In this document: piece after piece, positions 2,716-25,959 of the stretch | Numbering within the stretch: position 1 is the stretch's first letter | How the letters are laid out: each line of letters begins with the position of its first letter | Made by a program: the position numbers and the translations under genes | DNA from: Desulfobacteraceae bacterium | GTDB lineage: Bacteria > Desulfobacterota > DSM-4660 > Desulfatiglandales > Desulfatiglandaceae | NCBI GenBank assembly: GCA_030613055.1 | Contig: JAUWMR010000051.1 | Coordinates: forward strand, 1 to 32,217 | DNA length: 32,217 nucleotides | Reading direction: 5' to 3' | The notes under the pieces: model-generated | Database searches by the model: none | What the model saw: only the letters and a program-made list of their open reading frames with translations | What the model was told of the DNA's origin: nothing

Positions 2716-2738
2716 GGGGTTATTTGGGTTTGTTGGGG
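2615..2738 (+). repeat. 9-bp minisatellite array A (in epsI 5' end)
   Basis: About 14 units of GGGTTTGTT with variants (TTC, TTA, GAG, TTAT) read on the plus strand. On the coding strand it gives NPT, NPN, NST and MNP tripeptides and contains all the ATG candidates closest to the mature EpsI sequence. It ends just before the stop codon of the preceding gene at 2741. Confidence 0.95.
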
Positions 2739-2740
2739 TG

Positions 2741-3591: not shown

Positions 3592-4470
3592 CTATCCACC
3601 TGAGTATTTACATTTGTTCAATAATGAGAATTCCAGGAAGAGCAGCACAAATCCAAAGGCAAAAACAGCGAGGCCGGAAAATTCATGAAGAAAGCTTAGG
3701 GCGGGTTTAGCGCCGTAAAAATGTGCAAGAATGCCGGTGCCTGTTACTCTTACGATATTAGCAAAGATAGCCAGGGGAATTGCTGACAAGATGACAACAA
3801 TTCTATTCCGCCAGTGTTTGTCCATCATATAAGCAAAAAGAAAACCTAACATAATAAAAGCAGTCATAGACCGGAGTCCGGAGCAGGCTTCAGCTACTTC
3901 AAGTTGAGTGGTGGCAAAATATAGCATATTTCCTTCGCGATACACTGGGATGGATAGGGCGTGTATGAGAAACATGGATACTTTTGTCGCGAATAACTGA
4001 AGTGGAAACGCTGCTAATCCATAAATAGTAACCGGAACAGGTACCATGAATAAAAGATAAAAAAGGGGGAATTTAATAATAGAAAAGATGGCTTTTCCGA
4101 AATTTGATAGCACAATCCCTGTTAAGCTAAAAACAATCATAGATCTTGAAATAAAGGCCACTGCGCCGGCCAGGCTCAAAACATACAGCAACATGCTTAC
4201 GCACAAGATAATTATACCCCATTTTGAACCAGCGATTGGCGCATTTTTAAGCTTATCCCGCAGTTGCCAGATGAGATAGGCTGAAATAAAGGGTACCAGT
4301 ATCCCGTGAGAGTTATTTGAATGATTGAGCCAGGTAGTAAACAGGTAAGGATAGACTGGGATAAAGGCAATAGCCCATAGTATAAGCAGGACACAAAACT
4401 TCAGTATAGTGTTAGTTGGGTTCATTGGGTTTATTGGGTTTATTGGGTTTATTGGGTTTGTTGGGTTCAT
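3592..4470 (-). CDS. xrtA: Exosortase (PEP-CTERM protein-sorting transpeptidase)
   Basis: A polytopic membrane protein of 292 residues with the exosortase triad: Cys196 in EVAEACSGLRS, Arg241 in FANIVRVTGTG and His262 in LHEFSG. Eight or so membrane helices surround these motifs. By family it recognises the PEP motif plus membrane helix at the C-terminus of exported proteins, cleaves, and passes the product to the surface. The one PEP-CTERM protein in the window starts at 9743. The first about 20 residues (MNPTNPINP...) come from a 9-bp repeat array; ATGs exist at 4470 and 4425, neither with a Shine-Dalgarno. EpsI is a separate protein here. The subtype A assignment is inferred from the associated genes. 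Confidence 0.9.
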   Translation of the reverse strand: MNPTNPINPINPINPMNPTNTILKFCVLLILWAIAFIPVYPYLFTTWLNHSNNSHGILVPFISAYLIWQLRDKLKNAPIAGSKWGIIILCVSMLLYVLSLAGAVAFISRSMIVFSLTGIVLSNFGKAIFSIIKFPLFYLLFMVPVPVTIYGLAAFPLQLFATKVSMFLIHALSIPVYREGNMLYFATTQLEVAEACSGLRSMTAFIMLGFLFAYMMDKHWRNRIVVILSAIPLAIFANIVRVTGTGILAHFYGAKPALSFLHEFSGLAVFAFGFVLLFLEFSLLNKCKYSGG

Positions 4471-9107: not shown

Positions 9108-9743
9108 TTACTTTTTAAATCCCCTCCTGCTGACTCCCAACAGACCTACGATACCTGCTCCCAGAAGGAGCATGGTTGAGGGCTCAGGAACCGGGGCCGG
9201 CAACTGTCCCGATGCCCCAGCATTATTTCCACCAGCACCACCGTCTCCAGAGGCAGGATAAAGCGCTGGAGGCGCATAACTTGTTATCCAGAACCAATCG
9301 CTTGTAGAGCCGTCGTCAAGAAAAGGCCAAAAATCCCACAACGCGGTTGTCCCGGTATCACTCATAGATAAGACATCTCCTGCGACAGTAGGAGGAGGAC
9401 CTTTATCATAATTGATCTCTTCCACAGTATTTGGCCAATGTTCAATTGAGATGCTCTGAAAATTAACACCGGAACCGCCTGCGCCATCATAAACATTGGT
9501 CACTTGATATTTGTATTGGTATAGCCCAAAATCCGGATCAGAAATATCAGTTTCCTGCCACAAATCAAAGTCAACATCGAATAAAAAAGCATCGCCAAGA
9601 CTATCCTGACCGGAAAAGTTGTAAGTGCCCTCTAAAACATGCCCAATATCTGTAAAGGCAGCAAACACATTTGCGGCTGGTGCAGCCAGAAACATGGCTA
9701 AAATAATTAGCAAGGGCAACTTGCAAATATTTTTCGTTTTCAT
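9108..9743 (-). CDS. PEP-CTERM sorting-domain protein (exosortase substrate)
   Basis: A 211-residue secreted protein. An N-terminal signal peptide (LPLLIILAMFLAAPAANVFA) is followed by a beta-rich body with no recognised domain (GTYNFSGQDSLGDAFLFDVDFDLW; VTNVYDGAGGSGVNFQSI). A Gly/Ala linker precedes the terminal tripartite signal VPEPSTMLLLGAGIVGLLG and SRRGFKK, that is the PEP motif, a membrane helix and a basic tail. This is the exosortase recognition module at residues 185-211. The ATG at 9743 has AGGGAGA about 7 nt upstream. The gene stands alone with its own candidate promoter and terminator, so it may be expressed much more than its neighbours. Its surface role is unknown. Confidence 0.95.
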   Translation of the reverse strand: MKTKNICKLPLLIILAMFLAAPAANVFAAFTDIGHVLEGTYNFSGQDSLGDAFLFDVDFDLWQETDISDPDFGLYQYKYQVTNVYDGAGGSGVNFQSISIEHWPNTVEEINYDKGPPPTVAGDVLSMSDTGTTALWDFWPFLDDGSTSDWFWITSYAPPALYPASGDGGAGGNNAGASGQLPAPVPEPSTMLLLGAGIVGLLGVSRRGFKK

Positions 9744-9924: not shown

Positions 9925-11226
9925 TCAATATCCCCAACGAAACTCATGAAAGCCAGTCAGTGTCAACATAATCCTGTTATCCACATATTCATCATCCGGA
10001 TTATCACTTGTGTGATTTCTATATGTGTAGTCCAGACCTAACGAGAACCAGCGGGGAATTTCATATGAAAGACCGCATCGTCCCTCATAGGTTTGCTTAT
10101 CAATTTGCAGGTAATCTCTATCAATTCCAAAAGATAAGCCCGCATAGGCGCTCAAATTCTCCTGGAGCCTGTAATCAATCTTTCCATTAAAATTCATATA
10201 TTCCGCGAATCCGCCTTGTTCCGCGTCCATATAATCTTCACGCCATCCGCCACTAACCCCTAAAACAATGCTTCCATGCTCAATTCGTCTCGTGAGGCGC
10301 GCGTTGAAAAATGGCCCCGACCCTTCAGTGATATCCCCTTCGGGTATGTAGATACCTCCATCCAGGGACACAGACGTGTGTTCGGAAATATCATGCGCAA
10401 CCCCAAGCGAGGCCGTGTGCACCTGGTATTCCTTGGGCAACACCCTGAAATCCCTGAATGCAAAGGCATATCTGGCGTTTGCTCTTGTGCGCGGGCCGAA
10501 ACGATGAATGAAACGAACGCTCGCATCATGCCCGTCATAGTCATCTGCCTGTAAAGCGGCCTCTTCTCCCGGGTCGTCCCTGTACATGGTAAACGCGTAG
10601 TTCAGGTCAACCCCGTTTCTCACGTCAAACCAGTGGGATAATGCGACGAACGGCCCCTGCTCTGTAGAATCATCGAGAAAGGGGTCATCATTTTCCAGGA
10701 GTTGGTGAACATATCCGATAATGAAGTGGTCATTTGGGCCGTACTGATAGTCAAGACTGGCCCTGGCCCTATTTCTTTGATACATATCTCTGGTATGTCT
10801 TACCCCTGCTCTTTCAACATCCGGTTCGAATGTCTCTTCAAGAGGCCTTTCTGACTTCAGATACTGGTCTTCTATAACCAGATCCAGGTGCTCGCTGAGT
10901 CCGCGACGGTAAGATAGAGAGCCGGTATGTCTCAACGTGTCATGTTCCGAATGTTCATGATACCTTGCCCAGGTGGGGTAATAGGTAAGACTCAAGCCGT
11001 CCTTTTCAGATTCAACCTTAATTCTGATAGTCGGCGATATAGTGGTAATGTGGTCTGATTCCCTGTTTGTTTTGATCAGATAGATATTGTCATCATAGGT
11101 GTGAGCAACAACTACCATGGGAACAATTTCAATACGTTGCTTGCTCATGGCAGGGCAGGACATAAAAATGACTACCATTACCGCTGTCAAATTGAGGAAA
11201 AAACCTATTTTGAGAAAATTAGGCAT
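9925..11226 (-). CDS. Outer-membrane beta-barrel protein of the EPS locus
   Basis: 433 residues with an N-terminal signal sequence (FFLNLTAVMVVIFMSCPAMS). Repeated amphipathic strands with alternating aromatic residues follow (SLTYYPTWARYHEH, ASLDYQYGPNDHFIIGYVHQ, RTRANARYAFAFRDF, LGLDYTYRNHTS), and the last strand ends in FRWGY. The terminal aromatic residue fits BAM-dependent insertion. It resembles the barrel proteins found in PEP-CTERM/EPS loci (TIGR03016- or EpsL-like), proposed to form the export pore. It starts 11 bp after the export protein's stop, so the two are very likely co-translated. The exact family is from memory of context, not a specific motif. Confidence 0.8.
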   Translation of the reverse strand: MPNFLKIGFFLNLTAVMVVIFMSCPAMSKQRIEIVPMVVVAHTYDDNIYLIKTNRESDHITTISPTIRIKVESEKDGLSLTYYPTWARYHEHSEHDTLRHTGSLSYRRGLSEHLDLVIEDQYLKSERPLEETFEPDVERAGVRHTRDMYQRNRARASLDYQYGPNDHFIIGYVHQLLENDDPFLDDSTEQGPFVALSHWFDVRNGVDLNYAFTMYRDDPGEEAALQADDYDGHDASVRFIHRFGPRTRANARYAFAFRDFRVLPKEYQVHTASLGVAHDISEHTSVSLDGGIYIPEGDITEGSGPFFNARLTRRIEHGSIVLGVSGGWREDYMDAEQGGFAEYMNFNGKIDYRLQENLSAYAGLSFGIDRDYLQIDKQTYEGRCGLSYEIPRWFSLGLDYTYRNHTSDNPDDEYVDNRIMLTLTGFHEFRWGY

Positions 11227-11237
11227 TGATATATCCG

Positions 11238-13730
11238 TTACGGCACAACAATCACGTCCCGTCCACGCAGATAGATATTCAACTCAGGGTATTTTCCCGA
11301 AACTCCTTTCCTGTAATTATAGGGAATGTTTTCTTGTTTTCCGGCCTCATTTCGGACTATGGTTATGTGCTCTGCATCAGCCCACTCTGTCAAACCACCA
11401 GCAAGGGAAATGGCCTGTAGAATAGTCATATTGTCCCATAATTTATATTGCCCGGGGCTTCTGACCTTTCCTGTAACATAAAACAGCTCATCTTCCTTCG
11501 GCTCAAAAACAGTTAGTTCCACATAATTCACGTAGACCGTATCCCCTCCATATATCTCAGGTATCTTCATAAGACCTTCATTCTGCAGGAAGTCCTCTAA
11601 GTTTACACGTACTTCTACCTTGTTATTCCGTATAATCAATATCTTGCTAAGATCCGCATCGTCTGTTTCGCCGCTCGCTTGAACCAAAAGGTCGAGGAGG
11701 GTTATACCTTCGAAAGGCTCATAAATCCCCGGATTATTTACCGCACCAAATATTCGAACCTTTTTTTTGGGGTCCTTTTCCAGCCTTTCAGTGGGCGGCG
11801 TCCATGGCATCAGAGTTCTCTTGACATTGCCAAAAGCGGAAGAGATCGGGACGAAAATCCTGTCGCCTTCATGTAGCGGGGTAAGGAGCCTGGGATCACC
11901 TGTTACTGTGAACTGGTAAAGATTAACCCTTATCGACCGTAGTCTCCCACCCCATTCCCTCTTGATACTGACATCACTCATGATAGCGCCGTCAATAGCC
12001 CCGCCGGCCCTGTTGATGGCATTCTGTATATTCGATGCTTCCGGGATATTATAGCGGCCCGGATTTGTAACGTGTCCCGACACCTGGACATAGTGCTTTT
12101 TCTCAATAAGGTTTATCTCCACCTCCTTGGCCTGTCTGAGATACCTGGGAAGCTTGTCAGACACGAGCTTTGTTATCTCTTTGGTCGTCATATTCTTGAC
12201 ATAAAAATGACCATAGACCGGGACATAGAGATAGCCATTTTTGTCAACCTCGATTTGATTTTTCTTTATTGTGTCGGCTACTTGAAGGGACTCTATACCA
12301 ACAGCTCTCGTGGCCGGCTGTTTCCGCGGGATTTTTACATAAAGAAGATCGCCGGCGTCTATCCTGCTGTGATACACTTTGGGGTATGGAACTTCTAAGA
12401 TATCATCCGGCTCCATCGCTATCTTGCCTTTCAACCCAATTTCCCTGAGACCTTCCGCACTCTTTCGCTTCAGTCGAATTCCGGTGTAATCAGAACCCGA
12501 TAACAGGCCTCCTGACATTTCAACAAGCTCGTCCAGCGTTATTTTTTGAGGAACTCGATACCACCCCGCATAGCGCACGCCACCCCTTATTTGAATATAG
12601 CGGGTACGTTCTATAAGCCTGATTGATACCTTGTCTCCCTTTTTGAGAAATTTTTTGATCCTTTCCCATACTTCCTTAGTCAGTGTACCCAGATTCAGAC
12701 CTTTTGCCTCAATTTTACCAACACCCATCATATAGATGTTGCCTGACGGATCGACATCATAGTGTTTACTCATATCTTCCTGCTCAGGTATTTTCATCTC
12801 TAAGACATCGCCAGCGGATATGAGGCTCGCCCGGTCCACCTTCTTTGTAGCATCGTTAGAATCTATAGAAGCGAGTGGTGTCTCTACAGGTTTATCTGTT
12901 TTGGTTTCATCTGGCGCAAAGGGTAATAGCTCGGGTTTTTCTTCCCCAACGGGCATGGCAGGCTTGTCCTTAGGGCTGTGCTCTTTGACCGATGCTGCTG
13001 CGGGGAATGCCACCTCATTGGAATGAGGGCTTTCAATACCTTTATGGGTGCTGAAAGATGTAATGGATAAATAATAGTCTTTGATTTTACTTAAACCATG
13101 AAGAGTAATTTCGGTTACATCCTTTCCAATGATAACCGGCGGGGCGCCTTCATCCGCATAATCGGCCTCATCAGGTTCATAAGGTGGCCCGGGATCTGTA
13201 TCATAGTAGATCTTATACCCGTCAATATCGGCTTTATCGCTGGGGTCCCACTTGAGCGTTATATCCCTTTTGCCAGGAGAAGTTGCTTTTTTTGAATGGC
13301 TGCCGGATTTAGACTGAACAGGAGCAGTCGGAACAGGTTCAGTCCTTGACAAACGTTTATTCTTAGTAGAGCCATATTTTTGTCTAATAGTTCCCTCAAT
13401 AGTATCGGTCTTCCCCGACTGGGTTTTCACCACTACAATATCATCATTAAAACCAGTGGCGTGCATAGATCTTTTCCGGCTTAAGGCATCTTTTAATGTG
13501 GCAAAAGGCCCAATACGAACTTTGTACCAGGTCCCTTGCCCTGGAACTCTGCTTTTTTGGGTGTGAATAAAGGCCCTGTAGCTTTTTTCAGTAAGGTCCT
13601 TTACGGATTTTTCAGCGTTAGCCCTGTCTAAAAAAGAGCCTAACTGCAGGGCAAAGTCAGCGTTAGCTATTGACGAAAATAAAGCCACTAAAAAAAGCTG
13701 TATTAAAATATGGTAAAAGTATTTTTTCAT
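11238..13730 (-). CDS. SPOR-Fn3-polysaccharide export fusion with multiple SLBB domains
   Basis: An 830-residue envelope protein. Order: signal peptide (YHILIQLFLVALFSSIANA); SPOR domain (about 25-100, FALQLGSFLDRANAEKSV and WYKVRIGPFATLKDA); fibronectin type III domain (about 150-250, ITLKWDPSDKADIDGYKIYY); an acidic/proline linker; then two Wza-type polysaccharide export segments (ISAGDVLEMKIPEQ near 305, IDAGDLLYVKIPRK near 455). Soluble-ligand-binding beta-grasp repeats follow (IQIRGGVRYAGWYRVP, VQVSGHVTNPGRYNIP, VRIFGAVNNPGIYEPF, FYVTGKVRSPGQYKLW). SPOR binds denuded peptidoglycan. Ordinary Wza homologues are under 400 residues. I chose ATG 13730; an in-frame TTG lies at 13748. No lipobox is seen. 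Confidence 0.9.
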   Translation of the reverse strand: MKKYFYHILIQLFLVALFSSIANADFALQLGSFLDRANAEKSVKDLTEKSYRAFIHTQKSRVPGQGTWYKVRIGPFATLKDALSRKRSMHATGFNDDIVVVKTQSGKTDTIEGTIRQKYGSTKNKRLSRTEPVPTAPVQSKSGSHSKKATSPGKRDITLKWDPSDKADIDGYKIYYDTDPGPPYEPDEADYADEGAPPVIIGKDVTEITLHGLSKIKDYYLSITSFSTHKGIESPHSNEVAFPAAASVKEHSPKDKPAMPVGEEKPELLPFAPDETKTDKPVETPLASIDSNDATKKVDRASLISAGDVLEMKIPEQEDMSKHYDVDPSGNIYMMGVGKIEAKGLNLGTLTKEVWERIKKFLKKGDKVSIRLIERTRYIQIRGGVRYAGWYRVPQKITLDELVEMSGGLLSGSDYTGIRLKRKSAEGLREIGLKGKIAMEPDDILEVPYPKVYHSRIDAGDLLYVKIPRKQPATRAVGIESLQVADTIKKNQIEVDKNGYLYVPVYGHFYVKNMTTKEITKLVSDKLPRYLRQAKEVEINLIEKKHYVQVSGHVTNPGRYNIPEASNIQNAINRAGGAIDGAIMSDVSIKREWGGRLRSIRVNLYQFTVTGDPRLLTPLHEGDRIFVPISSAFGNVKRTLMPWTPPTERLEKDPKKKVRIFGAVNNPGIYEPFEGITLLDLLVQASGETDDADLSKILIIRNNKVEVRVNLEDFLQNEGLMKIPEIYGGDTVYVNYVELTVFEPKEDELFYVTGKVRSPGQYKLWDNMTILQAISLAGGLTEWADAEHITIVRNEAGKQENIPYNYRKGVSGKYPELNIYLRGRDVIVVP

Positions 13731-13748
13731 TTTTCCGTATCTGCTCAA

Positions 13749-13976: not shown

Positions 13977-15431
13977 TCATCTATATCCCGTCAGAACGTG
14001 AAGCTCGACCCTCCGGTTTAAGGCCCTGCATGCCTCATTTCTGCACGAAACCTTGGGCCTGGTTTTGCCGTATCCCACAGCGGTGAGGCGTTCCTCCTCA
14101 ATGCCTTTTTGCGCTAAATAATACATCACGGCCCTGGCGCGATTTTCGGAAAGAGTTTGATTGTACTGGGCGCTGCCTAAATTGCAGGTGTGGCCCTGAA
14201 CCTCAATCCTCAAATAGGGATTCCGCTTTATCACGGCAACGACTTTGTTGAGAACATGATAATATTTTGGCTTAATATTATGTTTGTTAAAATCAAACAG
14301 GGTATCCCCGAGAACCCAGCATCCGCGTGAATCCACCCGGGCTCCTTCCGGTGTATCCGGGCACTGGTCTATGTAGTCGGGTACACCGTCTCTGTCTGAG
14401 TCTAAAGGACACCCTCTACTGTCAACTTTTACTCCTCTTGGTGTTCCAGGGCATTTATCCAGGTAGTCGGGTACACCGTCTCTGTCTGAGTCTAAAGGAC
14501 ATCCCCTGCTGTCAACCTTCACGCCTTTTGGTGTATCCGGGCATTTATCCAGGTAGTCGGGCACGCCGTCGCCGTCTGGGTCTAACGGGCACCCTCTGCT
14601 GTCAACTTTCACTCCTTTGGGTGTTCCGGGACACTTATCCGGGCCATCCGGTACGCCGTCGCCGTCTGAATCTAAAGGACATCCCTTGCTGTCAACCCTT
14701 ACGCCTTTGGGCGTATCAGGGCACTTATCCAGGTAGTCGGGCACGCCGTCGCCGTCTGAATCCGGGGGACATCCCCTTTCGTCAACTTCTATGCCTTGAG
14801 GCGTTCCAGGGCATAGGTCTTTATCATCGGGTACGGTGTCACAATCCGAATCTTTTGGAACAACCGGACATGTAAGGTAGTTGCGGATATTGTCATCGTC
14901 AAACATGGCAGCCACCGCCTTTGACACCGCGCCGTCGCAGCAATCATATAGATCGGTGGACTTGTTGGCTTTTTTAAAGTTTACGGTATATCCGTCACCT
15001 GTCGTTACCCTTAGATTCAATTTGCATTCAACAGTCCAGAATCTCCAGAAAAGTTCTGCTTGTGTAATGGAGAGCTTTAGTATTTTAGGCGCGCCTTTAG
15101 TAACTTTAACCCCCCTTTTTTTCAGCTCGGTCTTAAGCACGCCAGTCGCTGTCTCTGTCCATTTCCTTAGATTTCCCCACCATTTGTGAGTATAAGAACC
15201 AATAGGTATTATGTCTTCATTGTCCTGAACATTTACGATGGTGACGAGTTTGCAGATACTGAACTCCGGTTTCACGAACATTCCCTGTTCTATTGGAATC
15301 TGTCTGGGGATATAGAAGCGCTGTGTATAATCGGGTTCATAGTAGATCCGATGTCCACTGCAGCCCGAAAAGATGAGCAGAACGAACAGAAAAAAGATGA
15401 TGCTCATTATAGATAATATTGATCTTGACAT
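13977..15431 (-). CDS. OmpA-family lipoprotein with six thrombospondin type 3 repeats
   Basis: 484 residues. A lipoprotein signal (FFLFVLLIFSGC) precedes a roughly 170-residue domain of unknown type (HKWWGNLRKWTETATGVLKTEL). Six tandem 30-residue TSP3 Ca-binding repeats follow (DSDGDGVPDYLDKCPDTPKG and variants). A C-terminal OmpA peptidoglycan-binding domain ends in ALNRRVELHV. The protein should tether the outer membrane to the wall through a rigid Ca-stabilised stalk. In the OmpA motif usually written GHTDN, the Asp that contacts diaminopimelate is Cys (GHTCNLGS). The paralogue at 26728-27579 has the same change. The start is supported by GCGAGG 6 nt upstream. Confidence 0.92.
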   Translation of the reverse strand: MSRSILSIMSIIFFLFVLLIFSGCSGHRIYYEPDYTQRFYIPRQIPIEQGMFVKPEFSICKLVTIVNVQDNEDIIPIGSYTHKWWGNLRKWTETATGVLKTELKKRGVKVTKGAPKILKLSITQAELFWRFWTVECKLNLRVTTGDGYTVNFKKANKSTDLYDCCDGAVSKAVAAMFDDDNIRNYLTCPVVPKDSDCDTVPDDKDLCPGTPQGIEVDERGCPPDSDGDGVPDYLDKCPDTPKGVRVDSKGCPLDSDGDGVPDGPDKCPGTPKGVKVDSRGCPLDPDGDGVPDYLDKCPDTPKGVKVDSRGCPLDSDRDGVPDYLDKCPGTPRGVKVDSRGCPLDSDRDGVPDYIDQCPDTPEGARVDSRGCWVLGDTLFDFNKHNIKPKYYHVLNKVVAVIKRNPYLRIEVQGHTCNLGSAQYNQTLSENRARAVMYYLAQKGIEEERLTAVGYGKTRPKVSCRNEACRALNRRVELHVLTGYR

Positions 15432-15722: not shown

Positions 15723-16460
15723 CTATTCTTTGGCTGGGGAAGCCGCCCGTCGCAGAACGTCTGTATTTATGATCCACGTGCCTCCCTTGGCTTCACATGT
15801 TATCTGATCCTTTGCCTTTGGCCGCCATTTGCCGCCTCTGGCCTCGCATGTCTCTCTATCAAGTGATTTGGGTATCCATTTGTGATCCTGGGATTCACAC
15901 GCCATTTGATCTATGGCCGTAATCCATTTTCCATTGTTCTGTTTACATTCTGCTGGAAGCCTTCCTTCGGCGCCTTTGCAATGGGCAGCGCCTATTATTT
16001 TGCCATCAGCATCCTCACAATAAGGTATCTCAATGTTGCCATCATCAGTTTCACAATAATCCTCATCCGGGTTGCCGTCAGGTCTCCGGCAGTAGGCACA
16101 TAGATACGCGTCCCCCCTCAGTTCATTTCCATCACCCCTGTTAACAAATACATGGGTTGCTCCGAGTTCAGCAGCATTGTCTAATAATTCATTAACCGCC
16201 CTGTTGTTATATGTCCAGCAGCCGGGGAATCCCCAGCACAAGCAGAAGCCGCATAAGGGCTCCAATCCCGTTACATTTCCAAGAAATTCACACTTGGCTT
16301 CCACCTCATGGGCCTGAATTGCGGTAATCAGCCTGACGCGAGATGCCCGGGTGGACATAGTGGGAGTGGTTGAGCATGAAATTAGTGAGAGCGCGGAAAC
16401 CAGGCAAATAAGCATTGTTCCTGATTTAATTTGCAGTATTATTTTTTGCTTAATCTTCAT
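15723..16460 (-). CDS. Cys-rich lipoprotein with DUF4156-like domain
   Basis: 245 residues with a lipoprotein signal ending SALSLISC. A domain resembling DUF4156 lipoproteins follows (VRLITAIQAHEVEAKCEFLGNVTG ... NELLDNAAELGATHVFVNRGD), a small outer-membrane lipoprotein fold. The C-terminal half is a series of degenerate repeats of about 15-20 residues with one Cys and a GKW or GTW element (ACESQDHKW, CEARGGKW, CEAKGGTW). Such repeats probably form disulfide-stabilised loops. GAGG 6 nt before the ATG supports the start. Function in the EPS locus is unknown; a sensory or scaffolding role in the outer membrane is only a guess from position. Confidence 0.7.
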   Translation of the reverse strand: MKIKQKIILQIKSGTMLICLVSALSLISCSTTPTMSTRASRVRLITAIQAHEVEAKCEFLGNVTGLEPLCGFCLCWGFPGCWTYNNRAVNELLDNAAELGATHVFVNRGDGNELRGDAYLCAYCRRPDGNPDEDYCETDDGNIEIPYCEDADGKIIGAAHCKGAEGRLPAECKQNNGKWITAIDQMACESQDHKWIPKSLDRETCEARGGKWRPKAKDQITCEAKGGTWIINTDVLRRAASPAKE

Positions 16461-16579: not shown

Positions 16580-17647
16580 TTATACTTTTGGGATCTTGCC
16601 CAGCACCGGAAGATGGACGGTGCTTGTGATATCGCTTTCGTGACGAATGGGCCCTTTAATAAACTCCGGTAACAAGGCTACCCCAATGCCCAGAAACAAT
16701 CCTACCATAATTCCATAGGTCAGGAGCCTTTGTCTTAATTTCTTTGATCGTCCATAGCTGACCTCAGGGGAGCCTATAACAGAGATATTCCCAACGATTC
16801 CCGCTTCCTTCATCCGGGTCTCAAGAAACACCTGATCCATGAAATTAAAACGGGTCTTTGCCATCTCGAGATTGGCCTGGAGCCGTTCCATTTCTAACTG
16901 GAGTCCAACATCGCGCGCTACTTCAAGTTCACCTGGGATTTCATAGTGTTTCTTAAAGTCAAGAAGTTCTTTCTCTGCCTTTGTGTACACATGATATGCC
17001 TTATTTCTTTGCTCTGAAGCGAAATCAGCTTTGGCCTTGCTCTCTTTCTTATTGTCTTCCAGATTTAATGCTATCAGAACATCAATATAAGCCTTGATTA
17101 TTATAAGCCCTGTTTCTTTATTAATGGTCCTGAGAGAAATAGAGATCAACGAATTTCTGCTGTTTGGTTTGATTGTCAGTCTTTCCCGCATTTCCATCAG
17201 TATCATTTTTCTTTCTGAGATATCCGTGTCTTTTTTGATCAACCTGGTTCTCAACAATTTCTCGAGGCCACTGATGATCTGGGAACTGAGGCTCAATGAG
17301 GTTTTGAAATCATTTTTGGTTTTATCAGGCAAAATTTTAAAGACTTCAATGGCAATCCGGTTGCCCTTGAGCCTTTCTGCCATGGCACCAACATATGCCG
17401 CCCGGGCAAATCGTGGAGCGACCTCATCTTCTGTGCGCTTGGGTACAGCTTTTGTGCGGGGTTGTTGAATAAGCAGGGTCGAGAGGGTGACGTATTCAGG
17501 TTTGATAAGCTGGGTCATGGTCAGGGATACAAAGAGACATATCAGAAAGGTGATGAGCGCTATCCATTTCTTCTCCAAAACCGGAATAACATATTTTGAG
17601 ATATATACGGTAATATCTATTTTTTTTATTTCTGTTTCGTAGTTCAT
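16580..17647 (-). CDS. Wzz/GNVR-type polysaccharide chain-length determinant
   Basis: 355 residues with the polysaccharide co-polymerase layout. An N-terminal membrane helix (WIALITFLICLFVSLTMTQLI) precedes a long periplasmic helical domain (coiled segments around LEMERLQANLEMAKTRFNFMDQ, ending in the proline-rich GSPEV). A second membrane helix (LLTYGIMVGLFLGIGVALLPEFI) and a short cytosolic tail follow. It would control chain length of the exported polymer. Its start overlaps the stop of the kinase-like gene by 4 bp (ATGA), so the two are translationally coupled. Separate Wzz and kinase subunits are the usual arrangement in many Gram-positives and in XrtA loci. Confidence 0.9.
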   Translation of the reverse strand: MNYETEIKKIDITVYISKYVIPVLEKKWIALITFLICLFVSLTMTQLIKPEYVTLSTLLIQQPRTKAVPKRTEDEVAPRFARAAYVGAMAERLKGNRIAIEVFKILPDKTKNDFKTSLSLSSQIISGLEKLLRTRLIKKDTDISERKMILMEMRERLTIKPNSRNSLISISLRTINKETGLIIIKAYIDVLIALNLEDNKKESKAKADFASEQRNKAYHVYTKAEKELLDFKKHYEIPGELEVARDVGLQLEMERLQANLEMAKTRFNFMDQVFLETRMKEAGIVGNISVIGSPEVSYGRSKKLRQRLLTYGIMVGLFLGIGVALLPEFIKGPIRHESDITSTVHLPVLGKIPKV

Positions 17648-18525
17648 TTTACCTTTAGAAGAGCAGGAAGATTTTTGTGAAATTGCAAATTATATATAAT
17701 CCCGTGGATAATCCCGCCACCCTGGGCAATGACAGAGACCGCGTTTTCCAGTTTGGATTTAGACGTCTTCTTGTCCTGAACTATTATGAGCACCATGTCG
17801 CAAATGAGACTTAAAAGGACAGGATCCACGTTATTTCTGTTCTGGTTGAGTACGGGAGATGTATCTATCATTATGAGATCGAAGTCCTGTTTGATTTGAT
17901 GCATAAGATTATCAAGAAATGCCCGGTTTAAAAAACGGTATAGATCGGGGTTGGGATTGCCTGCCGTTATTATCTTCAGTTTTGGGAGGTTCGTGCTTTT
18001 GATGGCCGAGCGCCAGTTTATGGAACCTGTTGCGACTTCGGCAAAACCCGTATCCAGTTCTAACCCAAATGGAAGGTGTAACTGGGGACGACGCATGTTC
18101 ATGTCTATGAGAAGAACATTTAAGGCGCTGAATGAAGCGGCATTGTAGCCTAATAATGAGATCAGGAAGGTGTTGCCGGCATCATCATGGGGACTGGTTA
18201 CAAGTATCGTACTATGATTCTGCTCCTTAAGCGTGCTGACGATCCTTTCCCTCATCCTGTGTAATTCAGCATAATTAGAACCTCTGGTCACAATTGCCCT
18301 TGTGAGCGAGCTTTTTTCTGCCTGCTTCTTGCGTTTGCGTTTTGACGGAGAAGGCGCGGGAGTGGTTGAGGGTTCAGGCGGAAAATCAGCGGGAGGCGGG
18401 GGCGGATTATCCGGTCGTTTCAATGGGGGAGGAGGGGTGTCCGGAATGTCGTTTTCACCAAGACTTGATTCTCGAATTCTTTGAGCGAGGCCTCTGCGGT
18501 GTTTTTCTGTGTTTTGTGAGATCAT
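17644..18525 (-). CDS. BY-kinase/CpsD-like protein with degenerate P-loop
   Basis: 293 residues: a proline-rich basic N-terminus (about 28-70), then a CpsD/CapB-type domain. Walker A is degenerate: residues 110-119 read TSPHDDAGNT where the family has TSxxPGEGKT, so the catalytic lysine is Asn118. Walker A' (LLIDMNMRRPQLH, Asp141) and Walker B (DLIMIDTSPVL, Asp221) remain. The C-terminus (NLPALLKVK) lacks the usual tyrosine cluster. I infer a non-kinase that may act as scaffold or adaptor between the co-polymerase (4-bp overlap downstream) and the ParA ATPase (4-bp overlap upstream). Weak ATP binding without turnover cannot be excluded. Confidence 0.83.
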   Translation of the reverse strand: MISQNTEKHRRGLAQRIRESSLGENDIPDTPPPPLKRPDNPPPPPADFPPEPSTTPAPSPSKRKRKKQAEKSSLTRAIVTRGSNYAELHRMRERIVSTLKEQNHSTILVTSPHDDAGNTFLISLLGYNAASFSALNVLLIDMNMRRPQLHLPFGLELDTGFAEVATGSINWRSAIKSTNLPKLKIITAGNPNPDLYRFLNRAFLDNLMHQIKQDFDLIMIDTSPVLNQNRNNVDPVLLSLICDMVLIIVQDKKTSKSKLENAVSVIAQGGGIIHGIIYNLQFHKNLPALLKVK

Positions 18526-19346
18526 TTGTTCCTTTTCGGGGACGAATCTGTAAAGTCAGCGCAGACTGATAAAAATTCTTTAGCTAATTGCCTGTATGCC
18601 TTTGCCGCCCTTGTGGTTGAATGGTGGCGAAAAACCGTTTCCCTTGCGTATTCCGCTTCTTGAAACGCGGTGTTAGCCGGTATCAGGGTATTAAATATCT
18701 GACTTTTACTAAAACGTTCGGTAATATCGTGAATAATAACCCTGCTTATGGAGGTTCTCAAGTCAACACGGTTGATGAGGAGTCTTAAGAATTTTAGATC
18801 GGGATTTCCCGAGGCTCGAATACTGCTTATGAGTTCTAATGCCTTTCTGAGGCCATCAAAACTGTATGCCGACCCCGCGTCATTGGGCACGATAACAAAA
18901 TCGCTGGCGTACAGGGAGTTGGCAACAAAGACGCCCATATTTGGCGGGTTGTCAATGATAGTGAAATGAAAGTGTTTTTTTGCCCAGTCCCGCACCTTGT
19001 TTCTCAGGATCATCAGGCTTGCGGGATAATGGGAGATGAGATCCATTTCCAGACCGGATGTCTCTTCAACGTTCGGGAGGCAATAAAGACCCTTGTATTT
19101 TGAGAGATGAATGCAGTTTTCAACAGGCGGGGGGTTGGCTTTATTCGGATCGGTCAATTCATAGAGGGTATTGCGGGTCATTGTATTGTTGGAAAGCAGA
19201 ATGCCCGTAGCATTACATTGGGAATCAAGGTCTATGACGAGAACCCTCTTGTCTAAACGGGTCAAGGCCACGCCAAGATTACATGAAATGGTGGTTTTGC
19301 CGACGCCACCCTTATTGTTGACAACCGAGATAATAATACCTGGCAT
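18522..19346 (-). CDS. ParA/MinD-family ATPase heading the EPS operon
   Basis: 274 residues with a canonical deviant Walker A, VVNNKGGVGKTTISCNLG, right at the N-terminus. A' is VLVIDLDSQCNATG and Walker B is FTIIDNPPNMG. The length and the missing DNA-binding extension fit a small ParA/Soj-like protein. Such ATPases position plasmids, chromosomes or surface machines by ATP-dependent dimerisation on nucleoid or membrane. No ParB partner is present in the window. It is first in a three-gene coupled run (4-bp overlaps) with a P-loop-deficient kinase homologue and the chain-length protein. I chose the ATG at 19346; an in-frame GTG lies at 19355 and no strong Shine-Dalgarno discriminates. Confidence 0.9.
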   Translation of the reverse strand: MPGIIISVVNNKGGVGKTTISCNLGVALTRLDKRVLVIDLDSQCNATGILLSNNTMTRNTLYELTDPNKANPPPVENCIHLSKYKGLYCLPNVEETSGLEMDLISHYPASLMILRNKVRDWAKKHFHFTIIDNPPNMGVFVANSLYASDFVIVPNDAGSAYSFDGLRKALELISSIRASGNPDLKFLRLLINRVDLRTSISRVIIHDITERFSKSQIFNTLIPANTAFQEAEYARETVFRHHSTTRAAKAYRQLAKEFLSVCADFTDSSPKRNK

Positions 19347-19447
19347 ATTGACCACACTTGGATTGCTGATCCCATCTCCAGCAGGACTCCATCCAGGCTT
19401 TTTGATTTCTGGATAGGAAATAGTTAGATGGGTTGACAGCTAATGAT

Positions 19448-20175: not shown

Positions 20176-23043
20176 ATGAATAGAAAAAAATCTAAAAAAA
20201 TAATGACAATTTTATTATTCATTTCTTATCTGATCATCAATTCCGGCTGCTTTTTGTTGGAAAGTGATGAAAAGAAGGCTGAAAACTATTATCAGTCAGG
20301 CATGACAGCGCTGGAGGAGCAAAAGGACGATGAGGCTATAATACAATTTAAGAATGCTGTGCAGAAAAATCCCTCTCATGCAAAGGCCCATTACCAACTG
20401 GGAACTCTCTATATTAAATCCAAAAAGCTCTATTTAGCCGTTCAAGAGCTAAGCATGGCCGTCGATCACGACCCAAAGCTGAACAAGGCAAAAAAGGCGC
20501 TGGCATTGCTATACTATCAGAATCGTGCCTATTCCAAGGCAGTTCCCATCTTAAAGGAATTGATAGCAAGTAAGGGAGAGGAACTGGAAACTCTCCTCCT
20601 TTTGGGCAACTCATTAGTGAATATGAAAAGCATGGACGAGGGGGAAGAAATACTGGTTAAGGCAGTGGACGCCTATCCGGATAATTCAAACGCAAAGATA
20701 AGCCTGGCCCGGGTGCTTGTCTTGAATGACCGCCCAAAAGAGGCACGAAAAATGATGGAGGATGCGGCAGCCCTTCATCCTGAAGACATTTATGCCCGGA
20801 TACTGCTTGCTCGCTTTTATGAAAAAATGAAACTTGGCAGGGAGGCTGAAAAGGAGTTTAAAAAAATCCGCCATGACTTCTCCGAAAAGGCGGTTTCATA
20901 TCAGGTCCTTGCGCGATTCTATCTGCGTAAAAATAGACTGAATGATTCTGTTGCCACAATAAGTGAGGCCATGGCGAAAGGAATTAAAAAACCTGACCTG
21001 TTGCATGTTCTTGGCCTTGTCCGGCACAGGCAGAAGAATCACCAGGCTGCTCTTGAAAGTTTTAAAGAAGCGGCAGCATTATCTCCGGATGATCTGAAAA
21101 GCTCAATTCTCCTCGCGGACTATTATATCTTTTTAAAGAAGTACACCGAAGCCAGGGCGATATATGAAACAGTTGCAGAAAAATGGCCCCGGCTTGTGCC
21201 GGTGAAGTCCAAGGTTGCTGAACTTCTTTTAGCAGAAAAACGTTATGACCAGGCCATGAAACACATAGAGAAGATGTTGGAAGAAGACCCTGAATACGCC
21301 AGGGGCCATATCCTGCGAGGCATGTTATGGATGAGGGAGGGAAAGGGTATCAGGGCAAGAGAGGATTTTTTAAAGGCCCGTGATCTGGACCCGGAATCGG
21401 CAGACGGCCATTACTATTATGGCCTGACGTTAATGGATAAGAAGGAGTATGAAATCTCCCTGTCTGAGATTACGAAGGCGCTTGAAAAAAGACCCGATTC
21501 CATAAAGATCCGACTGGCCCTTTCCTATCTCTATTACAAGACTAAGAAGTTGCGATTGGCTTTAGGAGAGCTTGACAGGGTTTTAAGAGTGCGGCCTGAC
21601 ACCGAGCGTGCCAGGATCCTGCGAGCGTCGGTTTACATGCTATCCAGGAATTATGAGGGCGCGGCATCAGACTACCGGTACTTACTAAAGAAAAATCCCA
21701 ATTCACCCCTTATTCGACTCCGGTTAGCAGACACATGCTATGCCCAGGGAAACATTGAAACGGCCTTGAAAAGTTATCATGACATTCTGGCGCGTTCGCC
21801 CGGTTTTGTGGGAGCCCTTGAAAGAATCGCGAAAATCTATGTAGGGCAAGGTAAACATGATAAGGCCCTCAGGCTGTGTGATGAGCAACTGAAAAAACAG
21901 CCGGACAACCTCCAGATGTGCCTTATAAAGTCCGCGCTCTTAATGGATCAAAAAAAATACAAGATGGCGGAAGGCCTCTTGACCGGTCTGATTGAGAAAA
22001 ATCCTGAATCGGATCGGCCTGTTATGTTAATGGCCAGAATCAACGTGGATCGCAAAAATTATGACGCCGCGTTAAAGCTCTATCAGAAGGCAGTTAAAAT
22101 TAGACCTGAGAAGATTGAGGCATATATAAAAATGGCCCATATTTATAAACTGACGGGGGATATGGATAAGGCAATAGAATCTTATGAAGACCTTCTCAGT
22201 ATTAACGATTCGTTTGCCCCTGCAGTGAATGACCTGGCCTACATCTATGCCGATATGGATGGAGACCTGGACAGGGCCCTGAACCTGGCCAGGAAGGCCC
22301 GTCAACTTATGCCTGATAACCCGGCCGTGGCAGACACACTGGGATGGGTATATTACAAGAGAGGCTCTTTGCTCCTGGCACGAGAGCATATTAGTGAGGC
22401 AGTCAAGGCCAAGCCAAAAGACGCCCTTTTGCATTACCACCTTGGAACAGTATTTCACAGGACCCAGGAATTTTCAGAGGCTGCAAAAGAATTGCAGCAG
22501 GCGTTGATTTTGGGGTTAGGCAAAAACGAGACAGCGGCTGCTTCCAGTCTCCTGAAGGAGATACAGGATATTGAGGCCCATATGAAAATGGTCAATGTTT
22601 ATAAGCGGTCAGGTGATATTAACAGGGCGGCCAAGGTCTATGAAGATCTCATTAAAAAGAAGGATTCATATACCCCCGCGCTTAATGACCTGGCTCGCCT
22701 TTATGCTGATATGGATCGAGACCTGGACAGGGCCCTGACCCTGGCCATGAAGGCGCGGGAACTTATGCCTGATAGCCCGGCCGTGGCAGATACACTGGGA
22801 TGGGTATACTATAAGAGAGGCTCTTTTCTTCTTGCAAAAAAATATTTAGATGAGGCAATAATGGCCACGCCGGAAGACCCGCTCTTCCATTACCATCTTG
22901 GCACGGTGTTTTATGAGGAAAAAAATTCTTCTGAAGCCGTTAAAGAACTCCAGCATGCCATCAAACTGGGCCTGAGGAAAAAGGAAACTGCGGCCGCCAG
23001 AAAGCTGCTTCAGCGGATGGGGGTGGAGGAGCGTAAGCGCTAA
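20176..23043 (+). CDS. prsT: PrsT-type TPR-repeat lipoprotein of the PEP-CTERM system
   Basis: 955 residues, nearly all tetratricopeptide repeats. An N-terminal signal is followed by a lipobox-like Cys (ISYLIINSGC; position -3 is Asn, so lipidation is likely but not perfect). Repeats such as KAHYQLGTLYIKSKKLYLAVQELS then run to the end. Length, lipoprotein start and locus match the PrsT family (TIGR02917) of exosortase A systems, proposed as a periplasmic scaffold for export. Residues about 650-800 and 803-950 form an obvious tandem duplication: both carry RALNLARKAR/RALTLAMKAR and PAVADTLGWVYYKRGS. AGAGGA 7 nt upstream supports the ATG. The gene is transcribed away from the main EPS run and convergent with the sugar transferase, 32 bp apart. 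Confidence 0.93.
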   Translation: MNRKKSKKIMTILLFISYLIINSGCFLLESDEKKAENYYQSGMTALEEQKDDEAIIQFKNAVQKNPSHAKAHYQLGTLYIKSKKLYLAVQELSMAVDHDPKLNKAKKALALLYYQNRAYSKAVPILKELIASKGEELETLLLLGNSLVNMKSMDEGEEILVKAVDAYPDNSNAKISLARVLVLNDRPKEARKMMEDAAALHPEDIYARILLARFYEKMKLGREAEKEFKKIRHDFSEKAVSYQVLARFYLRKNRLNDSVATISEAMAKGIKKPDLLHVLGLVRHRQKNHQAALESFKEAAALSPDDLKSSILLADYYIFLKKYTEARAIYETVAEKWPRLVPVKSKVAELLLAEKRYDQAMKHIEKMLEEDPEYARGHILRGMLWMREGKGIRAREDFLKARDLDPESADGHYYYGLTLMDKKEYEISLSEITKALEKRPDSIKIRLALSYLYYKTKKLRLALGELDRVLRVRPDTERARILRASVYMLSRNYEGAASDYRYLLKKNPNSPLIRLRLADTCYAQGNIETALKSYHDILARSPGFVGALERIAKIYVGQGKHDKALRLCDEQLKKQPDNLQMCLIKSALLMDQKKYKMAEGLLTGLIEKNPESDRPVMLMARINVDRKNYDAALKLYQKAVKIRPEKIEAYIKMAHIYKLTGDMDKAIESYEDLLSINDSFAPAVNDLAYIYADMDGDLDRALNLARKARQLMPDNPAVADTLGWVYYKRGSLLLAREHISEAVKAKPKDALLHYHLGTVFHRTQEFSEAAKELQQALILGLGKNETAAASSLLKEIQDIEAHMKMVNVYKRSGDINRAAKVYEDLIKKKDSYTPALNDLARLYADMDRDLDRALTLAMKARELMPDSPAVADTLGWVYYKRGSFLLAKKYLDEAIMATPEDPLFHYHLGTVFYEEKNSSEAVKELQHAIKLGLRKKETAAARKLLQRMGVEERKR

Positions 23044-23075: not shown

Positions 23076-24455
23076 TCAGCGGCCTTTGCCAAACAGGACT
23101 TCCTTGATGGTCAGGATGATTATCAACAGATCCAGATGCCATGAAAAGTGTTTGACATAGTAAAGGTCATACTTGAGCTTTTCTCTGGCATCTTCGAGGC
23201 TGTCTCCGTATGGATAATTTATCTGTGCCCAACCCGTCAGACCTGGACGCCTGGTGTGGCGGAGGTTGTAGTAAGGTATTTGTTCCTGCATCTGTTTAAC
23301 AAAAAAGGGCCGTTCAGGTCTGGGGCCAACAAGGTCCATGTCTCCTTTGAAGATGTTAATAAACTGGGGCATTTCATCCAGCCTGGTGTTTCGGATAATG
23401 CGGCCCACCCGGGTGACGCGCGGGTCATTCTTTTTTGTGAACACGGGTTTTCCTGATTTTTCAGCGTCGATATACATGGAGCGGAATTTGAGCAGGCGGA
23501 ATATTTTGCCGTTAAGGCCGACCCTGTCCTGATGAAAAAATACGGGACCCGGGGAGTTGAGCTTAATCAGTATAGCTGTCAGCAATAAAATCGGCGAAAA
23601 AACAGTGAGCAGAATAAAGGACACAATTACTCCCTGTGATCGCTTAATGGAACCGTGGAGGGAGCTGTGGAAAAATCCTTCCTCAAATATTATCCAGCTC
23701 GGCTTGAGAAACTCGTCGATTATAATTTTTCGTTTGACCTTTTCGTAAAAACTCGGCCCCTCCTGGATGCGAACATTATTAACCTTGAATTCGAGCAACT
23801 CGTGAACCGGCAGTTTTCCACGCCGTTCGCGCAGCGTTATCACGATACTGTCAGGGCCGTGTTCCCTTATGATTTCTTGAATCCGCTCCATATGGCCGAG
23901 GACACGAACGCCGTGGAAGTCAGTCCCCACCTGGCTTTCCAGTGATGTAACGATCCCTCCAATTTCATAGCCGCAGAATTTTTTGTCGCGAGATTCCTTG
24001 ATAATCTCCCGGGCCTGCTCATTTGCGCCTATGATCAAGATGCGTTCCCGGTTTTCCGGAAGATAGTAATACAGCAAATACCGGAAGATAAAAATCAAAA
24101 CGCAAATAATAATTAGGGGAGGGAGCACCCGCCAGTTAAGTGAGGGAAAGCTTTTGGTAAGAAAACCAAGTGTGGCGATGGAGCCAATTGCAAGGGAAAA
24201 CACAGGAATGATTTCATTGAACAGGTCGATGGAGTATGTATATTCCATAAGAGAATAGAGGCGGGCCGGGACCAAAGAAACAATAACAAGCATGGTGAAG
24301 AGGAAATACGTCAGGTGAGCATATAGTCCACCGGAGGTTGCCCATTCAGGTGATCCGGGCAGATTCGGGATGACAAGCAAGAAGATCATGTAGGATATGA
24401 TTGCATCGGCAAGAATAACGGAAATTGTGCCCCAGGTAGTCCGAAGTGAAAACAT
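23076..24455 (-). CDS. Undecaprenyl-phosphate sugar phosphotransferase (EpsB/WbaP-like)
   Basis: About 459 residues. Four to five N-terminal membrane helices are followed by a CoA-binding-like central domain (ILIIGANEQAREIIKESRDKKFCGYEIGGIV). After another helix comes the bacterial sugar transferase domain: SPGPVFFHQDRVGLNGKIFRLLKFRSM, TRLDEMPQFINIFKGDMDLVGPRPERP and RPGLTGWAQINYPYG. It would move a sugar-1-phosphate to the lipid carrier, starting EPS repeat-unit synthesis; it resembles the TIGR03013 group tied to XrtA loci. I chose the ATG at 24455 (MFSLRTTWGT), because the longer frame to 24596 overlaps the GGDEF gene. A GGAGG lies 12 nt upstream, inside the end of that gene. Confidence 0.93.
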   Translation of the reverse strand: MFSLRTTWGTISVILADAIISYMIFLLVIPNLPGSPEWATSGGLYAHLTYFLFTMLVIVSLVPARLYSLMEYTYSIDLFNEIIPVFSLAIGSIATLGFLTKSFPSLNWRVLPPLIIICVLIFIFRYLLYYYLPENRERILIIGANEQAREIIKESRDKKFCGYEIGGIVTSLESQVGTDFHGVRVLGHMERIQEIIREHGPDSIVITLRERRGKLPVHELLEFKVNNVRIQEGPSFYEKVKRKIIIDEFLKPSWIIFEEGFFHSSLHGSIKRSQGVIVSFILLTVFSPILLLTAILIKLNSPGPVFFHQDRVGLNGKIFRLLKFRSMYIDAEKSGKPVFTKKNDPRVTRVGRIIRNTRLDEMPQFINIFKGDMDLVGPRPERPFFVKQMQEQIPYYNLRHTRRPGLTGWAQINYPYGDSLEDAREKLKYDLYYVKHFSWHLDLLIIILTIKEVLFGKGR

Positions 24456-24462
24456 ACCAGAA

Positions 24463-25959
24463 TCATTCCTCCATGTGCTCAAATGTTTTGACTCGATTGC
24501 CTCCCAATATTTTTGCGGAAACAAGCGCGGTTTTGGCTCTTTCCACAAGTTTTTCGGGCGTATCGGAGTCATCCGGAAATGTAGCCATGCCACCACTCAA
24601 GGTGGGTGGATGTGTCAACTGAATGCGCATATCCACAGGAAGATCTGAAACAGTATCAAGGATACGGCTCGCTACCTTGAACGCATCCTGTTTGGGGGTG
24701 TCAGGCAGCACAACACCGAATTCATCTCCCCCGATTCGACCCACTATGTCATTGCTTCTAAGACAGCTTTTTATTCTATCGGCAATAACGCGAAGTAGTT
24801 GATCTCCTATGAGATAACCGTGGGTTCGGTTAAACCGGTCCAGATGGTCAATGTCAAAAATTACGAGCGAAATCTTGCTGTCTTTCAGTCGCTGCCCGCG
24901 GTTGAATTCCTCATGGAGTCGTTTCCACCAGAGGCCGTAGTTGTATGTGTCGGTCAGGCTGTCGGTAAAAGCCAGCTCATGAAATTTGCGCCCTGAAGCC
25001 GCTTCTTCTATGCTCTTGGCAGCATCTTTGCAAATAAGTTCAATTGTCCCTCTCATTGCCTTGTCGAGAGCCGGTGATTTGCCGGCAAACAGCAAGAGAT
25101 GGCCGTGAGTCTGATCCTGCCATATAAAAGGCATGAGGACAAAATAGTCCTCCTTAAAAAATTTTGCCGGTCCAGCGAAAAGTTCCTTGCGGCTGAATAT
25201 TGTAATATGCCGGGCTTGCTCTACTTTTGATTCCTTAAGACACGGAACCAGTTCCTCGTAGATCTCGCGATAACGCTTTGTATCGAATCCGTAACCCAAT
25301 ACAAGATCAAAAAAACCCGATTCCGGATTTTTCAGGAGAAAGACGCCTTTTTTTTGTGTTGTTAGAAGGTCGGTGATAAGATGAAAAATGAAGTCGAATA
25401 CCACCCTCAGCTCCCTCAATGTGTTGTATTCTCGAAAGATATTCATCATGTAGAGCTGGGAGGGTGTCTCGTGATGACTTACGGGTGATTCTGCCTGGAT
25501 GAGGTATTCGAAAAAGCGGCTAATGATGCCCTGGACCAGCCATTCTTTTTCCGGACGTATGTCGTGATTTGCTTGAGTAGAGTTAATATTGACAGTACCA
25601 AGTGTTCCGTCGTTAAGCTTAATGGGCACTACATAAGAGGTGTCTATTTCAGGATTGATCAGATCGCCGGGCTCAATACTGAGACGCCGTTCACCGCTGA
25701 TCCCTTTTAGAAAGATAGACTGGCCGCTGGCAGCGACCTTTCCGGAGACACCGTTACCAAGCCGCACACGGGTTTTTTCAATAATCTCCTTTTTCAGGCC
25801 GCGGGCACTCCGGATTGTAAGCTCCTGGAACCGGTCATCGAGCAGCATGATGGAGCCCCGTTCCGCTTTCATGACTTCCAGTATTACATCCAGCATCAGA
25901 TCCAGGATATTGGCGGGAATTTGTTCAGCACCGGATTTTTTTATTGCTCTTTCGTTCAT
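24463..25959 (-). CDS. GAF-GGDEF diguanylate cyclase
   Basis: 498 residues. A GAF domain (about 15-150: AERGSIMLLDDRFQELTIRSARGL, GVSGKVAASGQSIFL, YVVPIKLNDGTLGTVNINS) is followed by a second GAF-like region (about 170-320). The catalytic GGDEF domain has FTDSLTDTYNY, the metal-site Asp in FDIDHLDRFN, and an intact RIGGDEFGV at 410-414. The inhibitory RxxD site is present (RSND, 401-404). It should make c-di-GMP with product inhibition. The gene ends 7 bp before the sugar transferase and shares its transcript, which suggests local control of EPS priming. The start is the ATG at 25959; a TTG at 25974 is in frame. Shine-Dalgarno is weak. Confidence 0.93.
   Translation of the reverse strand: MNERAIKKSGAEQIPANILDLMLDVILEVMKAERGSIMLLDDRFQELTIRSARGLKKEIIEKTRVRLGNGVSGKVAASGQSIFLKGISGERRLSIEPGDLINPEIDTSYVVPIKLNDGTLGTVNINSTQANHDIRPEKEWLVQGIISRFFEYLIQAESPVSHHETPSQLYMMNIFREYNTLRELRVVFDFIFHLITDLLTTQKKGVFLLKNPESGFFDLVLGYGFDTKRYREIYEELVPCLKESKVEQARHITIFSRKELFAGPAKFFKEDYFVLMPFIWQDQTHGHLLLFAGKSPALDKAMRGTIELICKDAAKSIEEAASGRKFHELAFTDSLTDTYNYGLWWKRLHEEFNRGQRLKDSKISLVIFDIDHLDRFNRTHGYLIGDQLLRVIADRIKSCLRSNDIVGRIGGDEFGVVLPDTPKQDAFKVASRILDTVSDLPVDMRIQLTHPPTLSGGMATFPDDSDTPEKLVERAKTALVSAKILGGNRVKTFEHMEE

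Follow-up and report, generated by a model that had tools for sequence, protein, structure and literature searches.

A ParA-type ATPase and a kinase-dead CpsD homologue in an exosortase-linked exopolysaccharide locus: a candidate cargo system for a polysaccharide co-polymerase

Introduction

Pairs of a polysaccharide co-polymerase (PCP) and a pseudokinase with the fold of a bacterial tyrosine kinase (BY-kinase) are already known, and what is new in the locus described here is their link to a ParA-type ATPase. In Myxococcus xanthus, the stand-alone protein EcpK has the BY-kinase fold without catalytic residues or a tyrosine tail; it binds the kinase-less PCP-2 protein EpsV, by modelling at the C-terminus of the latter, and is regarded as its scaffold (PMC12004946). 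In the Caulobacter holdfast system, the pseudokinase HfsB is important for the stability of the kinase-less PCP HfsA (PMC12004946). Our locus lies on the 32,217-nt contig JAUWMR010000051.1 of a Desulfobacteraceae bacterium (assembly GCA_030613055.1); the whole contig is called the window below, and coordinates are positions in it. Genes for a ParA-type ATPase, a BY-kinase-like pseudokinase and a GNVR/Wzz-type PCP follow one another on one strand, joined at both junctions by 4-nt ATGA overlaps, in agreement with the translational coupling claimed in the initial annotation of this DNA. Judged from sequence comparisons, these three genes would form a ParA cargo system for the PCP, a reading to which we assign a probability of roughly 0.55.

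Compared with its closest described relatives, the locus differs in several respects. EcpK has no Walker motif and is encoded away from epsV (PMC12004946), whereas the window pseudokinase keeps Walker B and the first aspartate of Walker A', adjoins the PCP gene, and has both a ParA and a long N-terminal tail. A word search of the available text of PMC12004946 gave no mention of a ParA partner for EcpK/EpsV, and its account of HfsB/HfsA, as far as available, reports none either. The same text names a Syntrophus pseudokinase/PCP pair, SYN_00779/00780, and among the open-licence papers searched no second one with these locus tags turned up. The statement in the initial annotation that no described exopolysaccharide (EPS) system is built this way was thus too broad as far as the pseudokinase/PCP pair is concerned.

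A BY-kinase/PCP pair is tied to the ParA/ParB world also in Streptococcus pneumoniae, where CpsD resembles ParA, binds ParB and links the capsule to the cell cycle, and where CpsC/CpsD captures the polymerase at midcell (PMC4574921). There, however, an active kinase stands in the ParA-like place and binds the chromosomal ParB (PMC4574921), whereas the dead kinase of the window has a ParA of its own and would occupy the ParB-like place. The cellulose-secretion protein BcsQ is likewise a ParA/MinD relative encoded in a polysaccharide operon, and is pole-localised, but it reads RGGVGTT (PMC9178275), whereas the window ParA reads KGGVGKTT and goes with a Wzc-type PCP instead of a synthase. In the ParAB, McdAB and ParC/PpfA cargo systems, the partner is described as contacting the ParA/MinD ATPase through an N-terminus that is charged and disordered, and as binding the cargo with the remainder of the protein (PMC10241942). 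Here, too, the ATPase has a downstream-encoded partner whose N-terminus is predicted to be disordered and whose body would bind the cargo; the difference is that the cargo would be a PCP/EPS export complex. The open-licence papers that we searched contained neither a PCP/EPS export complex as ParA cargo nor a ParA linked to a BY pseudokinase. As far as the sequence comparisons below can tell, the system is real and conserved, and joins two known kinds of system.

Results

The CpsD-like protein belongs to a lineage without the P-loop lysine

The CpsD-like protein of the window has the BY-kinase fold, with the Wzc kinase-domain chains 3la6 as the top Foldseek match (E 1.7e-14), and a profile search with it matched BceF, CapB, VpsO, Etk and Wzc. 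It scored below the curated BY-kinase cut-offs (TIGR03018, 86.1 vs 230.65; TIGR01007, 84.2 vs 108.05). The other marks of an active BY-kinase, namely the Walker A lysine, the DxD of Walker A' and a tyrosine-rich C-terminus, are absent. Asn118 replaces the lysine and the PGEGK pattern is gone from the P-loop; Walker A' reads D141-M-N143-M-R, where active BY-kinases read DxDxR; and the last tyrosine, Y278, lies 15 residues before the protein end, and there is no C-terminal tyrosine cluster. The initial annotation had rightly recorded the P-loop and C-terminal changes, and its claim that Walker A' and B are both kept holds for Walker B (D221) and fails for Walker A', whose second aspartate is lost. 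What remains is a protein of the EcpK/HfsB type, with the fold but without catalytic residues or a tyrosine tail, encoded beside a kinase-less PCP. From the residue loss, we infer that it is catalytically inactive.

By profile search, relatives turned up in 4 of the 395 genomes in a phylum draw, in 7 of 85 genomes of the window's class, in 4 of 340 and 16 of 257 genomes of two other classes, and in 4 of 155 genomes of the class holding the Syntrophales relatives (two among the loci, L033 and L034). A scan of genome contigs yielded 7 loci, labelled Desulfobacteraceae, Syntrophales, Syntrophaceae, Thermodesulfobacteriota or Deltaproteobacteria. With overlaps between searches removed, there were 31 distinct loci. 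The family is clearly separate in the window's class, where its seven matches score at least 314.9 bits and the next best match 94.1. In a tree, its 31 members stand on one side of a branch (99/95) and 26 other BY-kinase-like rows on the other, the placement of the long-branch rows L126 and L128 and of the pair L120/L123 being uncertain. Of these 26 rows, 23 were picked by score from the window's class, and 22 of the 23 keep GK[ST]. L128 (genome G056) is a 250-residue BY-kinase-like protein without GK[ST], on a long branch outside the family.

The P-loop lysine is missing from all 31 relatives, replaced by Ser (13), Asn (9), Thr (4), Cys (2), Ala (2) or Ile (1). Walker A' is D-x-N and the Walker B aspartate is retained in every one of them, and none has more than one tyrosine from the last five domain residues onward. 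Since both the lysine loss and the D-x-N are universal, the comparison supports a kinase that is dead as a lineage rather than through a single mutation. A PCP gene with the conserved C-terminal tail lies directly downstream on the same strand in 31/31 loci (29 by a strict gap rule; the remaining two are stop-to-stop overlaps of 97 and 150 nt). This tail, RHESDITSTVHLPVLGKIPKV in the window, is a candidate anchor for the pseudokinase, which is suggestive only. Two genomes (L104:6662-8419 and L105:2-1444) encode a GT2 glycosyltransferase that carries the pseudokinase domain at its C-terminus, a fusion in keeping with docking as the role of the domain; both fusions have the PCP gene directly downstream and Thr for the P-loop lysine.

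ParA and the long N-terminal tail occur together

The perfect KGGVGKTT of the initial annotation is intact in the window ParA, within NNKGGVGKTT. The deviant Walker A motif KGGxGK[ST] and the catalytic aspartate, which aligns with the position changed in the solved Soj 2bek, are invariant in 9/9 aligned ParAs, so that by sequence the protein still has the features expected of an enzyme that is active and dimerises. Its structure model was poor (pLDDT, the predicted local distance difference test, 41). The protein is neither BcsQ (TIGR03371, 60.5 vs cut-off 157.85) nor MinD (TIGR01968, 55.1 vs 212.9; TIGR01969, 59.1 vs 201.75).

The first 84 residues of the window pseudokinase form a proline-rich tail that is probably disordered, with pLDDT below 50 for most of its length. 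Its presence was compared with that of ParA in the 26 of 31 loci where the ParA status was visible; L047 (ParA lacking its N-terminal part close to a contig end), L073 and L083 (ParA truncated where the contig stops), and L084 and L105 (upstream region outside the contig) were dropped. An intact ParA lies directly upstream of the pseudokinase in 18 loci, and all 18 of these pseudokinases have a long N-terminal tail, with 84-201 residues before the YAE motif. None of the eight ParA-less loci (L025, L026, L033, L034, L049, L086, L087 and L104) has one: seven have 12-58 residues, and L104 has the fused glycosyltransferase. We therefore propose the tail, missing in ParA-less relatives, as the candidate region of ParA contact. 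The triplet that the initial annotation suggested looking for in other genomes thus recurs, and the comparison favours its suggestion that ParA positions the export machine with the dead kinase as an adaptor, both by this association and by the likeness of tail starts described below. In L076 (genome G877, ~7329-7835), counted among the 18, the tail and the domain of the pseudokinase are read in different frames, owing to a frameshift or an assembly error.

Seven ParA-less genomes were searched whole (G1183 and G1102 were outside this search), and no EPS-type ParA was found elsewhere in them. Their best ParAs, at E 1.9e-45 to 7.1e-52, are at the level of chromosomal copies, compared with 1e-115 for the window EPS ParA; the chromosomal ParA of the source genome itself, beside a ParB-like frame containing MVKRKALGRGLSALIPD, gave E 6.9e-49. 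Because eight loci do without it, ParA appears to be an add-on that is dispensable for the core export machine. On the tree of all 31 loci (L105 scored as ParA-less, the other four unjudged loci as ParA-bearing), ParA and the tail require five changes each, and a rerun without L047, L073, L083 and L084 gave the same result.

The start of the tail follows the ParA clade

A profile of the EPS ParA, run against the phylum draw, detected 12 of 395 genomes at E <=1e-54. Four of these have the pseudokinase, and one (G045) has a chromosomal ParA next to ParB. The other seven (G138, G217, G266, G285, G306, G418 with four copies, and G435) have at least one such ParA but no pseudokinase was found in them, and downstream of their ParA lies a protein with a long low-complexity stretch. 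A domain scan covered nine of these ten downstream partners, all but that of G138, and gave winged-helix or replication-type matches at E <=0.01 for seven. Four partners matched above the model cut-off (L141 HTH_IclR, L142 HTH_24, L148 DnaD_N and L149 RPA_C); L145 (E 0.0093) and L144 (E 0.097) gave weak matches. The four modules of G418 (L141, L147, L148 and L149) each consist of a ParA and a winged-helix partner, with low-complexity repeats that differ between the partners.

The EPS ParAs fall into two clades. In clade II, the ParAs of the window and of G780 are nested among eight ParAs with winged-helix-like partners (100/97, inner branch 96/93; starred), and in clade I the other 17 EPS ParAs group with those of G266 and G435 (100/99; starred). 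The motif D[LI][FC]x[ST]I occurs in 17 of 20 clade I pseudokinase tails, compared with a mean of 0.03 and a maximum of 1 in shuffles, and the two winged-helix partners of this clade read DDLFRSIP (chance 5e-5 and 2.5e-4). In clade II, the basic peptide KHRRGLAQRIRESS of the window aligns with KNRKGLSERIRDSA of G780 through a common KxRxGLxxRIRxS, with none of 5000 shuffles as good, while the remainder of the two tails aligns weakly (53 of 2000 shuffles as good). All ten clade II partners begin with a basic peptide, the eight that are not pseudokinases having 3-6 basic residues per eight; for L070, the in-frame ATG yielding the conserved peptide was taken as the start. By these comparisons, N-termini track the ParA clade across unrelated protein bodies, and we propose KHRRGLAQRIRESS as a putative ParA-docking peptide. 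Another motif, [DN]PF[ED]G[IL][DN], is present in 20 of 22 tails, in all 20 clade I loci and nowhere else in the 31. Some clade I tails, such as those of L072 and L048, contain repeated short motifs resembling DPFEGID or NPLDGID, with no known partner.

Discussion

A proposed ParA cargo system for the export machine

The best reading of these comparisons is that an EPS pseudokinase acquired a partition module, which turned the PCP complex into ParA cargo. The GNVR protein would be the membrane PCP, and its short cytoplasmic C-terminal tail would hold the pseudokinase domain, as in CapA/CapB and EpsV/EcpK. No longer phosphorylating, the pseudokinase would serve as a scaffold, and its flexible N-terminal tail would start with the ParA-docking peptide, as the partner swap and the co-loss suggest. 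ParA would attach to a matrix that extends through the cell, probably the nucleoid, and stimulation by the tail would let EPS export complexes be spread, positioned or partitioned in the cell. Since ParA and the docking peptide resemble the modules found beside winged-helix proteins, DNA would have been replaced by the EPS machine as the cargo. Tentatively, at somewhat less than even odds, EPS export complexes may represent a new class of ParA cargo, with the partition module added on two or more occasions to a BY pseudokinase that would now be a ParB-like adaptor.

Several observations weigh against this proposal. Only two independent ParA/tail pairs lie on starred branches, compared with five on the best tree, and a sign test would need more. 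The ParA gene ends at the 5' end of the tail, so that one deletion can remove both, and their co-loss may partly be an effect of contiguity; L025 looks like such a single deletion, retaining only a 35-residue ParA remnant (51% identical to the window ParA, E 4.4e-7). The likeness between pseudokinases and winged-helix partners in clade II is one of basic character, with no alignable motif. Known partner peptides of ParA are usually basic, as are those of the window and G780, but in six clade I tails the first 15 residues have a net charge of -2 to +1, from nearly neutral to acidic. Finally, that the winged-helix partners partition DNA is something that we infer.

If the proposal is true, it would explain the cell placement of one kind of EPS system and give BY pseudokinases a concrete job, that of an adaptor with exchangeable N-terminal parts, either a ParA tail or a glycosyltransferase. 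It would also mean that ParA modules can switch cargo through the transfer of a short docking peptide, and suggests that some environmental bacteria may position their sugar-export machine as others position DNA.

Other explanations

The repeated loss of ParA, together with the ability of contiguity to explain the co-loss, would also suit an ordinary pseudokinase EPS locus in which ParA is a hitch-hiker or a regulator that acts elsewhere or on transcription, the tail being used otherwise, for example, to bind an EPS protein. The [DN]PF[ED]G[IL][DN] motifs, common in the tails and without a known partner, could point the same way. We consider this unlikely, as it leaves unexplained both the strict association of ParA with the tail and the motif that clade I tails have in common with the winged-helix partners from that ParA clade, which are unrelated proteins.

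Equally unlikely, in our judgement, though compatible with the ParA cargo reading, is that the pseudokinase binds nucleotide despite the lysine loss and acts as a switch gated by nucleotide, not as an inert scaffold. The first Walker A' aspartate and the Walker B aspartate are invariant in 31/31, the P-loop glycine and mostly the Ser/Thr are kept, and the best fold matches include solved Lys-to-Met mutants of Wzc and CapB, some of them titled with MgADP; on the other side stand the free drift at the lysine position (S, N, T, C, A, I) and the asparagine in place of the second Walker A' aspartate in all relatives.

Still more doubtful is a version in which an EcpK/HfsB-type pseudokinase scaffolds the PCP and ParA is the ATP-driven switch of PCP assembly, substituting for the lost kinase cycle. 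ParA keeps every catalytic mark and is tied to the operon by the 4-nt overlap, and PCP-2 proteins are thought to require cycles of assembly and disassembly (PMC12004946). However, eight loci keep a pseudokinase and a PCP with no local ParA, no EPS-type ParA turned up in the seven genomes checked, and the nearest other ParAs adjoin winged-helix partners, not PCPs; this speaks against the idea in the initial annotation that ParA took over ATP-driven switching. A recent one-off pseudogenisation by the Lys-to-Asn change, for which the three intact BY-kinases on other contigs could make up, is refuted, since none of the 31 relatives keeps the lysine and all remain beside a PCP gene.

Two findings that, according to the initial annotation, would have spoken against its reading did not materialise: no homologue with this arrangement retains the lysine, and the window yielded no intact BY-kinase. 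Three are encoded elsewhere in the source genome (contigs C84, C18 and C40), with xEGKT loops and tyrosine-rich stretches, and those on C84 and C40 adjoin open reading frames that look, by sequence appearance, to be of export type.

The surrounding locus

The locus is of the exosortase-linked EPS type, with an exosortase, a DUF3485 gene, a PEP-CTERM protein, a PrsT-type protein, a priming glycosyltransferase, an outer-membrane polysaccharide export (OPX) protein with SLBB domains, and a beta-barrel protein (Table 1).

Table 1. Positions of the genes and sequence elements discussed, in window coordinates.
Feature	Position	Strand	Remarks
DUF3485 gene	1972-2796		
Exosortase EpsH	3592..4470	minus	
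PEP-CTERM protein	9108-9743		
BBP2_2 beta-barrel outer-membrane protein	9925..11226	minus	PEP-CTERM/EPS type
SPOR-fn3-Poly_export-SLBB OPX protein	11238..13748	minus	836 aa; fn3 just under cut-off
TSP3/OmpA outer-membrane anchor protein	13977..15431	minus	
Small lipoprotein-like protein	15723..16460	minus	matches DUF4156 weakly, under the cut-off; also present in several related loci
GNVR/Wzz-type PCP	16580..17647	minus	no kinase domain; C-terminal tail conserved in family
BY-kinase-like pseudokinase	17644..18525	minus	293 aa; CpsD/CapB fold
Walker B IMIDTSP	17854..17874	minus	D221 kept
Degenerate Walker A' DMNMR	18091..18105	minus	D141 kept; DxD to DxN
Degenerate Walker A SPHDDAGNT	18169..18195	minus	Lys to Asn118
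N-terminal Pro-rich tail	18274..18525	minus	residues 1-84
Basic N-terminal peptide (putative docking peptide)	18463..18504	minus	residues 8-21; conserved with G780
ParA-type ATPase	18522..19355	minus	277 aa from GTG; in-frame ATG at 19346; clade II
PrsT-type TPR protein	20176..23043	plus	TIGR02917 above cut-off
XrtA/PEP-CTERM-type priming glycosyltransferase	23076..24596	minus	TIGR03013 above cut-off

The OPX protein is unusually long, and combines SPOR and a weak fn3 with two Poly_export stretches and several SLBB domains.

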